33,343 nt of DNA from Patescibacteria group bacterium (lineage in GTDB: Bacteria; Patescibacteriota; Gracilibacteria; UM-FILTER-43-11): NCBI GenBank assembly GCA_029260985.1, contig JAJDCE010000036.1:1-33343 (forward strand). The letters are read 5' to 3'. Below, in pieces: positions 12,926 to 25,750 of this stretch. The first letter of the stretch is position 1; each line of letters starts with the position of its first letter. Below the pieces are notes generated by a model. The model did not search any database. It was not told the DNA's origin and saw only the letters and a list, made by a program, of their open reading frames with translations. A program made the translations under genes and the position numbers.

Positions 12926-13717
12926 TTATTGTTCAATCGAACGCTTGAAAATCTCAATCACTTCCTCATGAATTGAAGTCCCATTACTCACCATTATATT
13001 AGAATCCCCGGGAACCCAGTCCTTTCCGTCAAAGTCAGTCGCTCTGCCACCGGCCTCCCGAACCAAAAGCGCTCCGGCCGCCATATCCCACAGGGGGAGT
13101 TTATTCATCAGATAAGCGTCACAAATCCCCTTAGCCACCAATGCCATCTCACTGCCGGCACTCCTAAGTCGGGACGCATCCCGGGCAGCGATCTTAAGTT
13201 CAACCACATATCGTTCAGCTTCCCGAATCGATTTTTCATCAGGCGCATGGCAATAGAGGAGCATCGAATCACCAATAACCTCCTGTTTAGACACATGAAT
13301 AGGCTCTCCATTTCGGAAGGCACCACCCCCTTTGGAGGCATGATAAAGATGATCAACAATCGGTTCATAAATCACAGACACCACTGGCTCTTTATTTTGC
13401 AGTAAGCAAAGCATGGTACAGAAAAAAGGATTCTCTGTTGCGTAATTCTTTGTGCCGTCCAATGGATCAATAACCCAAACAAGCTCACGTTCAGTTCGCT
13501 CAGATGTACCTTCTTCTCCGATAATCCCATGATCCGGAAAACGCTTTTTAATTTCATCGGCATAAAATCGCTCTACTTTTTTGTCGATTTCTGTCACCAA
13601 ATCACGAGGCCCTTTAAGTTGGATTTGCTCGGGGCTAAGTTTTCCAAAATTTTCTTTAAGAATAGCTCCGGCTTTTCGGGCGGTTTCCTGGGCGAATTTA
13701 AGATAGTCTTCAGTCAT
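12926..13717 (-). CDS. Inositol monophosphatase family protein (start trimmed from 13816)
   Basis: DLVTEIDKKVERF, GIIGEEGT, WVIDPLDGTKNY, PLWDMAAGALLVREAGG motifs; ORF extension reads through the tRNA-fragment region and is unlikely coding. Confidence 0.93.
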   Translation of the reverse strand: MTEDYLKFAQETARKAGAILKENFGKLSPEQIQLKGPRDLVTEIDKKVERFYADEIKKRFPDHGIIGEEGTSERTERELVWVIDPLDGTKNYATENPFFCTMLCLLQNKEPVVSVIYEPIVDHLYHASKGGGAFRNGEPIHVSKQEVIGDSMLLYCHAPDEKSIREAERYVVELKIAARDASRLRSAGSEMALVAKGICDAYLMNKLPLWDMAAGALLVREAGGRATDFDGKDWVPGDSNIMVSNGTSIHEEVIEIFKRSIEQ

Positions 13718-13743
13718 AAGATCATCGTTATTATCCAGTGGAG

Positions 13744-13780
13744 TGGTGGGTCTGGTCCCGCCTTGGCGGGACGACCAATC
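13744..13780 (-). pseudogene. Duplicated tRNA 3' half with T-arm replaced by palindrome TCCCGCC-AA-GGCGGGA-like hairpin
   Basis: Minus strand GATTGGTCG-TCCCGCCAAGGCGGGA-CCAGACCCACCA versus tRNA GATTGGTCG-TTGGTTCAATTCCAA-CCAGGCCCACCA. Confidence 0.8.
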
Positions 13781-13789
13781 TAGTTGCGT

Positions 13790-13865
13790 TGGTGGGCCTG
13801 GTTGGAATTGAACCAACGACCAATCGGTTATGAGCCGACTGCTCTAACCACTGAGCTACAGGCCC
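13790..13865 (-). tRNA. tRNA with CAU anticodon (Met or lysidine-modified Ile2), CCA encoded
   Basis: GGGCCTGTAGCTCAGTGGTTAGAGCAGTCGGCTCATAACCGATTGGTCGTTGGTTCAATTCCAACCAGGCCCACCA folds as a cloverleaf. Confidence 0.95.
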
Positions 13866-13958
13866 ACTGACCCGTTTAAGATATACGATAAACTACCCCC
13901 CTGCAAGATCAATGAGCTTTACAAATACGGTATAGAATGAGCCCCATAACATATAATA

Positions 13959-13989
13959 AAAAAGCAGAACCGCTAGGATCCTGCTTTTT
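13959..13989 (-). terminator. Intrinsic terminator downstream of RRM gene
   Basis: Minus strand AAAAAGCAGGATCCTAGCGGTTCTGCTTTTTT. Confidence 0.75.
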
Positions 13990-14013
13990 CAGTTTGAGTG
14001 ATTAAATCACTGA

Positions 14014-24007: not shown

Positions 24008-25750
24008 ATGATTAGACCTGAAAAGAAAACCATTGAAGGCATTTTAAAGGGGAGTGATTCCCAATTTTCTGTACCCTCATATCAAAGAAGTTTTGACTGG
24101 GGTAAGAGTGAGTTGCAGGAACTCATTGATGACTTAAGAGAAACAAAAGACTCAGACAATAAGGAGCTCTTTTTAGGCAACTTTATTTTCGACATTTCCG
24201 ATAAAAAAAATATCAAGATCGTTGATGGGCAGCAAAGACTTACAACTATATCAATAATATTAATTGCACTTCGTGAGCATGCTAAGAAAATAAATGAATC
24301 AGAATTTGCAGGAGAATTGCAAAACTTAATATCAATGAGCTCAGCCTGGAGTGATAAAACTGGAAATAAAATTAAAGTTTCCGAAAATATTAGGGATGTA
24401 TTTGAGTTTATATCTGATAGAGAATGGAATGGAGATTTTCCAGATAAAATTGATGAAAAATCTGTAAAAAGGCAGGTAAACAAAATTAAGCCAATTTTTA
24501 CCTATGTTTTAGATGAGCTATCAAAGTACAGCAAAGAGAGCTTAGAAGGTTTTACGCGCACATTGTTATACTCATATGTAATCGTTATTGAAGTTGAGAA
24601 TACTGAAGATGTATTTTCAATCTTTGAGCGAACAAATGCTCGCGGGCTAGATTTAAACATAGGTGACTTACTAAAAAATTATATTTTTTCACATGGAATC
24701 AAAGAGTTTGAGGGAAGATGGAATGAAATTATTGAAAATGCAGAAAGTTCACTACAGAGAATGTTAAAATATTTTTGGATTTCGCAAAAAGGTCATATAC
24801 AACAATCAAATCTTTATAAAAATTTAAAAAAACATGGTAAGGAGCTTGGAATAGACCAATTTGTTGGTGATCTTTATTCCTTTTCTAGATATTACAAAGT
24901 TGTCCAGTCACAAGATCCTGATCTCACTAGGGACTGGCTAGAAGAAATTGGACTTACTTCATTGTCAAGTAATGAGGATCATTATAGAAGGGTTAATCGT
25001 GTGTTTCAGGCTCTAAAATTATTTAGAGTTACGCAGGCTTATCCATTAATCTTCTCAATCTTTAAATTTTATCAGAATAGTAAAAGTAGTAGCTACAAAA
25101 ATTTGTTTAAAGCACTGGAAACCCTAGAAAACTTTCATTTTGTTAATAATGTAATTTCAGGAAGAATCGGTAATGAAGTTGAAAAATATTATGCAGAAAG
25201 TGCTAAACGTTTTTATGAGAGCCAAGAAGATTTTACAAAGATAATTACTGAATTTATTAACGGCTTAAAAAAGAAAAAGGCACATAAGGACGAATTTATA
25301 GCTAATTTTGTTGAAAATGTCACCTATGATAGCATTCCTTTGATCAACTATATTTATGACCGAATAAATAATTTCGAAACAAAAGGCGCACAACGAGTTG
25401 ATATTTATACTCCTGAAAAAGATATAAAAAGGCGTAACTTCAATATCGAACATATTCTTCCTCAGAGCTCAAAAAGTAACTACGAAGAGGATGAAGAAAT
25501 AGAATGCTTTGATAAAATTGGTAATCTATTGGTAATGTCTAGACACTCTAATTCAGAATTTCAGGATAAAGAGCCTTCTGAAAAGTTTGAAATTATCGAA
25601 TTAGATCCAAAACATACCGCCAACCTCAGATATCTAAATGTCTTTATTAAGGAATACAAAAAAGAGGCTGAAAATTGGGACTTTTTAACAATCAAAGAAA
25701 GGTCAAAAAAAATTGCTGAAAATGGGTTTGAAAAAATATGGGGTTTTTAA
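24008..25750 (+). CDS. DUF262 + DUF1524 (HNH) GmrSD-like protein
   Basis: SVPSYQRSFDWGKSELQELIDDL, IKIVDGQQRLTTISIILIAL; C-term FNIEHILPQSS...FDKIGNLLVMSRHSNSEFQDKEPSEK. Confidence 0.88.
   Translation: MIRPEKKTIEGILKGSDSQFSVPSYQRSFDWGKSELQELIDDLRETKDSDNKELFLGNFIFDISDKKNIKIVDGQQRLTTISIILIALREHAKKINESEFAGELQNLISMSSAWSDKTGNKIKVSENIRDVFEFISDREWNGDFPDKIDEKSVKRQVNKIKPIFTYVLDELSKYSKESLEGFTRTLLYSYVIVIEVENTEDVFSIFERTNARGLDLNIGDLLKNYIFSHGIKEFEGRWNEIIENAESSLQRMLKYFWISQKGHIQQSNLYKNLKKHGKELGIDQFVGDLYSFSRYYKVVQSQDPDLTRDWLEEIGLTSLSSNEDHYRRVNRVFQALKLFRVTQAYPLIFSIFKFYQNSKSSSYKNLFKALETLENFHFVNNVISGRIGNEVEKYYAESAKRFYESQEDFTKIITEFINGLKKKKAHKDEFIANFVENVTYDSIPLINYIYDRINNFETKGAQRVDIYTPEKDIKRRNFNIEHILPQSSKSNYEEDEEIECFDKIGNLLVMSRHSNSEFQDKEPSEKFEIIELDPKHTANLRYLNVFIKEYKKEAENWDFLTIKERSKKIAENGFEKIWGF

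Follow-up and report, generated by a model that had tools for sequence, protein, structure and literature searches.

The stretch that we analysed (the window, 33,343 nucleotides) belongs to a draft genome (G000; 148 contigs, 86% completeness) and carries on its minus strand an intact tRNA-Met(CAU) gene with an encoded CCA (13790..13865), recognised by ARAGORN and by Rfam (RF00005, 76.5 bits). This gene is the parent of a partial copy that begins on the same strand beyond the CCA, after the 9-nt spacer ACGCAACTA (13781..13789). Block 1 of the copy, GATTGGTCG (13772..13780), matches tRNA positions 41-49 at 9/9 and covers the 3' strand of the anticodon stem, the variable loop and the first base of the T-stem; block 2, CCAGACCCACCA (13744..13755), matches the tRNA-Met 3' end at 11/12 and covers the end of the T-stem, the acceptor 3' strand, the discriminator and the CCA. 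Between the two, where the tRNA has the 15-nt interior of its T-arm (TTGGTTCAATTCCAA), the copy has the 16-nt palindrome TCCCGCCAAGGCGGGA (13756..13771). The whole copy of the 3' half spans 37 nt (13744-13780, minus strand) and runs colinearly with the tRNA. It keeps the closing G49-C65 pair, and the palindrome with its outer G and C reads GTCCCGCCAAGGCGGGAC, an 18-nt palindrome (13755-13772) with an 8-bp stem and an AA turn. This layout agrees base for base with the original prediction, which had described the 9-bp spacer, the two blocks with their match counts and the exchange of a 15-nt T-arm segment for a palindrome.

We randomised the 100 nt downstream of tRNA-Met 200,000 times under a first-order Markov model; 57 of the randomised sequences held an 11/12 match to the tRNA 3' end, and none held both blocks. 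Across both strands of the 33-kb window, the tRNA-Met 3'-end 12-mer (at most one mismatch) is found only in the tRNA itself and in the copy, or tail, and the palindrome core occurs once against an expected 0.04. ARAGORN and Rfam report the parent tRNA alone and do not detect the tail as a tRNA; it does not have the complete cloverleaf of a functional tRNA gene, and because its 5' half and T-loop are missing it cannot function as a tRNA.

The tail sits in the 72-nt gap that separates tRNA-Met from an inositol monophosphatase family gene (12926..13717, minus strand; Pfam PF00459, 2.6e-68). The reading frame of that gene (12926-13816) remains open through the tail, from a TTG at 13816 inside the tRNA; the true start is probably the ATG at 13717, and automatic annotation may place it too early. 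On the other side, a terminator scan placed an intrinsic-terminator-like hairpin after the upstream RRM gene (13957..13991, minus strand). At the tail itself the scan found no promoter-like or terminator-like site, and we rejected an intrinsic terminator as a reading of its hairpin, which has no T-run and is followed by CAGACCCACCA. By the criterion used, no upstream partial copy, or head, pairs with the CAGACCC of the tail; GGGTC just upstream of tRNA-Met fits it weakly, by eye. Among the window ORFs scanned, Pfam recognised no integrase, transposase or reverse transcriptase. Elsewhere the window carries a GmrSD-type restriction endonuclease gene (24008-25750; PF03235, PF07510).

Partial copies at other tRNA genes

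To the flanks of the tRNA genes in six genomes of the window's class (G000, G016, G012, G010, G017 and G022), other tRNAs being masked, we applied a census that covers tRNA flanks only and counts 12-mers that differ at no more than one position, the downstream side being searched to 300 nt. The tRNA 3'-end 12-mer recurs downstream in 39 of 214 cognate tRNA/flank pairs as against 6 of 6788 non-cognate pairs (Fisher p ~2e-54), and the 5'-end 12-mer recurs upstream in 16/214 cognate as against 13/6648 non-cognate pairs (Fisher p ~2e-17). Tails lie downstream and heads upstream, each terminating at the mature tRNA ends; a matching head is present for 5 of the 39 tails.

The T-arm is exactly replaced by a 15-18-nt palindrome in 19 units on 13 tRNAs, and in all 19 block 1 stops no more than 1 nt from the start of the T-arm and block 2 starts no more than 2 nt from its end. 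This swap is seen at Met, Thr, Pro, Lys, Asp, His and Ile tRNAs; an exact anticodon-arm swap is seen at Glu, Leu-CAA and Gln tRNAs, and the Leu-TAG unit of G016 combines T-arm and anticodon-arm modifications. In some units the hairpin is instead put into the T-loop with 17-20 nt to the CCA kept, and Arg-CCT of G016 has a clean palindrome insertion there, while upstream copies are modified in the D-arm or D-loop. A second class of tail begins within the T-loop, continues through to the CCA and lies 46-166 nt downstream. Other tRNAs of the window's own genome have T-loop-type tails (Lys-TTT, Pro-TGG and Arg-TCG) and a D-arm-swapped head (Ile-GAT; all among L114, L129, L132 and L126). The copies are thus real and recurrent, match their cognate tRNA and break at exact arm boundaries.

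Tails also form tandem arrays, with a 42-47 nt period at Lys, Asp and Gly tRNAs (L205, L218, L230, L307): three units at Lys-TTT, two at Lys-CTT and three at Asp in G022 (L205, L218, L230), and three at Gly in G045 (L307), where the anticodon arm is missing as well. Some arrays are located at contig ends. At tRNA-Asp of G012 the duplication extends beyond the unit to about 40 nt of downstream flank, a T-run included, as local duplication predicts. Duplication that takes in the flank (G012 Asp), insertion into the T-loop (G016 Arg-CCT), exact loss of an arm (G045 Gly) and exact arm swap are each present. The heads of G016 Met (L072) and G017 Thr-TGT (L258) have a common ~65-nt body, with 88% identity over the aligned stretch. 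A rule that units start in the preceding loop was blurred by mismatches, and we do not claim it.

The tRNA-Met query matched in 17 of the 18 family genomes searched. There is no tail at the corresponding tRNA in G010, G013, G006, G007 and most other family genomes. The tRNA-Met of G012 does have one, in which palindrome (TCCCGCTTAGCGGGA) and spacer are both unlike the window's and which tracks its own tRNA (CCTGGCCCACCA), the acceptor sequence being CCTGGCCC in both. In G016 the tail is on a different CAU tRNA and is again cognate (CCGGTGACACCA); the end of contig C13 of that genome (L073 3341-3482) holds tandem tRNA-Met pieces in which the same palindrome replaces the anticodon arm, a repeat that runs off the contig end. 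The original prediction had named two outcomes that would tell against it, namely sister genomes without the fragment together with reads that do not support it, and a collapsed tandem tRNA array. Most sister genomes do have no tail at tRNA-Met, but G012 has one that follows its own acceptor sequence, and a collapsed array is not supported.

Distribution of the palindrome and of the arm swap

The same hairpin is found at multiple genomic places, with two exact copies in G000 and 18 near-copies in G016. Although the stretches no more than 200 nt from an annotated tRNA make up 1.6% of the G016 genome, they hold 13 of these 18 (p 4e-20); of the other five, three are in further copies of tRNA-Gln or tRNA-Met and one is just past the 3' end of the 16S rRNA. 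In G017 the palindrome occurs between the 23S and 5S rRNAs (these two rRNA-linked copies are L081 642-659 and L082 625-642); its preference is for stable-RNA genes. Judged by sequence, hairpins of the same pool occupy variable arms of functional RNA genes as well. CCGCC-two bases-GGCGG hairpins are found in the RNase P RNA of G009, G011 and G005, in the P3 arm of the fold; CCCCCGATGTACTTCGGGGG is common to the RNase P RNAs of G003 and G002, and the 3'-terminal variable arm uses other hairpins of the pool (L292-L305). Pool hairpins may have moved into these arms. The RNase P RNA of G001 has an arm insertion of more than 100 nt (L292-L305).

We scanned 84,980 species for exact occurrences of the T-arm-swap pattern and obtained 23 matches. 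Of these, 12 belong to Patescibacteria-type assemblies (Peregrinibacteria, Peribacteraceae, Kerfeldbacteria, Komeilibacteria, WWE3, Parcubacteria and other bins) and almost all of these adjoin tRNAs; the other 11, in Streptomyces, Actinomadura, Frankia and Azospirillum, have no tRNA-like context, look like chance in GC-rich sequence and were set aside. Within the window's class, the core pattern is present in 7 of 288 genomes, the match in G167 not being next to a tRNA. Occurrence of the swap is patchy, as seen by a search pattern that detects one palindrome and one arm only. We conclude that these "hairpin-swapped tRNA satellites" are a recurrent class in Patescibacteria, consisting of incomplete copies of the adjacent tRNA that retain a single mature end, located downstream if the CCA is kept and upstream if the 5' end is kept, in which a hairpin drawn from a small shared pool replaces an arm or fills a loop.

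Discussion

We favour, with a probability of roughly 0.55, the reading that the tail arose as a partial duplicate of the tRNA-Met next to it and is dispensable, a repetitive hairpin module standing in the place of the T-arm. The segment from the 3' strand of the anticodon stem to the CCA end would have been duplicated beside the tRNA-Met gene, and a palindromic hairpin module of the TCCCGCCNNGGCGGGA family would have come to take the exact position of the T-arm, presumably by insertion and then loss of the old stem. Duplication and hairpin insertion would then be the mechanism, and the tail would have no function at this locus. Among the four explanations that the original prediction had offered, insertion of a palindrome into a tRNA duplicate fits best, since it recurs beside many tRNAs and in many genomes with the tail cognate each time, whereas a remnant of site-specific integration is weak, since Pfam finds no integrase among the window ORFs scanned and the swapped arm is unlike an att core. 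A decoy or a processing target may apply, in view of the unexpected perfection of the copies. We identified no palindrome-inserting enzyme, and Y1 transposases do not track the units.

Several observations speak against a dispensable duplicate. Junk should decay, yet identity to the cognate 12-mer is bimodal, with 35 copies at 12/12 and three at 11/12, the window tail among the latter, and counts at 10 or 9 matches that do not exceed background. G016 and G010 share the Tyr tail at 18/18 positions despite a spacer that has diverged to 87% with gaps; nested outer tRNAs elsewhere, described below, are predicted to keep paired acceptor strands. Such near-perfect copies could be due to fast turnover, to conversion by the adjacent tRNA or to selection.

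It is possible, if rather unlikely, that the copies are functional RNA modules in pre-tRNA leaders and trailers in which the hairpins serve as structural elements, that the repeated acceptor strand competes for its partner or forms an outer tRNA-like jacket, and that such modules steer maturation, stability or decoy binding. Identity that is either perfect or absent is consistent with this, as are the placement of heads upstream and tails downstream with their ends at the mature tRNA ends and the retention of the orthologous Tyr tail and Thr-GGT head alongside a diverged body. So are seven loci in other Patescibacteria, from the class of L104 and one WWE3 genome, at which a functional tRNA is enclosed by a hairpin-modified outer tRNA copy and the tail is the 3' part of that copy. 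The inner tRNA lies in the D-loop of the outer copy at L104, L110 and L334 and in its anticodon arm at L105, L106, L322 and L326. RNAfold predicts seven outer acceptor pairs in 5 of the 7 loci and six in one more, and the outer acceptor is unlike the inner one in L104, L105, L106, L110 and L322. L104 and L110 agree in the predicted topology of the stem that leads to the inner tRNA; two of its pairs have changed in a compensatory way (A-T to G-C and A-T to T-A) and none is broken. A single pattern for the CCTGCC...GGCAGG D-loop hairpin of upstream copies matched 16 of 381 genomes of the class of L104, a few of these matches being unrelated to tRNAs.

What tells against a functional role is that most units are lineage-specific: within genus g10, most G016 units are missing at the orthologous tRNAs of G010 and G017, and the Gln-CTG unit of G010 is decaying. 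The Thr-CGT unit of G016, for example, is missing in G017 before the same gene; the window locus has no alignable empty site. Moreover, a matching head exists for no more than 5 of the 39 tails, the window tail being without one, and paired arms can come from palindromic repeats without selection. Tails, heads and nested tRNAs might even be one architecture, a hairpin-armed outer tRNA-like jacket around a functional tRNA that, complete or half, is kept matched to its tRNA and controls or protects pre-tRNA maturation, but we find this joint claim doubtful. The window has no head, and we therefore do not claim jacket membership for its tail.

We consider it improbable that the tail is an integration scar, that is, a displaced attR-like 3' end left after a small element integrated with an identity block that kept the tRNA intact. 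The tails that run from the T-loop to the CCA 46-166 nt downstream do resemble known tRNA integration cores, and the ~65-nt body shared by heads of different tRNAs could be read in the same way; here, however, the repeat is broken by the swapped arm, the inserted bodies are shorter than 200 nt and the window ORFs scanned gave no integrase Pfam match. IMG/VR viral contigs do not contain the T-arm-swap pattern, on which ground we also rejected a phage link.

We think it very improbable that an IS200/IS605-like Y1 (RAYT) transposase moved a REP-type palindrome which landed by chance in a tRNA duplicate. REP hairpins of the same genome (L008, L010) do look similar to the palindrome, and Y1 domains are present in G000 (two) and G012, but none was detected in G010 or G017, nor in G016 and G022, where units are commonest; we thus rejected a correlation with Y1 transposases. 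Nor is the palindrome spread over intergenic space at large; it is concentrated at RNA genes. Chance similarity or a metagenome assembly artefact is scarcely credible given the shuffle test, the cognate specificity and the recurrence in independently named assemblies, even with a draft genome of 148 contigs and 86% completeness and some arrays at contig ends.

Few known sequences are as tightly constrained as tRNA genes, yet here they lie amid incomplete copies of themselves that have given up a whole arm for another hairpin, and in some lineages the functional tRNA is enclosed in a loop of a second copy. If selfish, the satellites would reveal a DNA process that handles a stem-loop as an exchangeable unit; if functional, they would mean that tRNA maturation has a further, new level in a very large bacterial group that is for the most part uncultured. 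For annotators they are a trap, since they look like tRNA pseudogenes or att sites, and both the calling of start sites and programs that find integration sites can be misled by them.

Our search of the open literature found no description of such hairpin-swapped partial tRNA copies. They are real and recurrent, and we regard them as a variant of hairpin repeats that acts on tRNA duplicates by arm exchange. The tyrT repeats of E. coli (rtT RNA; Rfam RtT) are found in one operon as tandem ~178-bp units that repeat the tRNA 3' end (~19 nt). Like them, the satellites can be tandem units downstream of a tRNA that repeat its 3' end, but rtT is without the exchange of an arm for a hairpin, and the Rfam RtT model has no match in the window, where the tRNA alone is found at the gathering threshold. 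Integrative elements that target tRNA genes leave a direct repeat of the tRNA 3' end downstream, in blocks that start from the anticodon or T-loop. Unlike in these, the spacer here is 9 nt, no element lies within or beside the pair of repeats, none of the window ORFs scanned matches an integrase, the identity block is interrupted by the swapped hairpin, and units form tandem arrays. Rickettsia palindromic elements are selfish palindromes inserted into genes; to our knowledge they are not associated with exact replacement of tRNA arms or with partial copies of a cognate tRNA. With REP/RAYT systems the satellites share GC-rich imperfect palindromes repeated in the genome, but the palindromes here are at stable-RNA genes and have no consistent transposase partner. 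Mitochondrial repetitive or double-hairpin elements, such as the RHE of sponges, are palindromic repeats in intergenic regions and in structurally unimportant places of rRNA genes (PMC2800124). The likeness lies in short palindromic repeats spread through one genome; the mitochondrial elements are insertions (PMC2800124), whereas here whole arms are replaced at stem boundaries and the hairpins sit in partial copies of a neighbouring tRNA.
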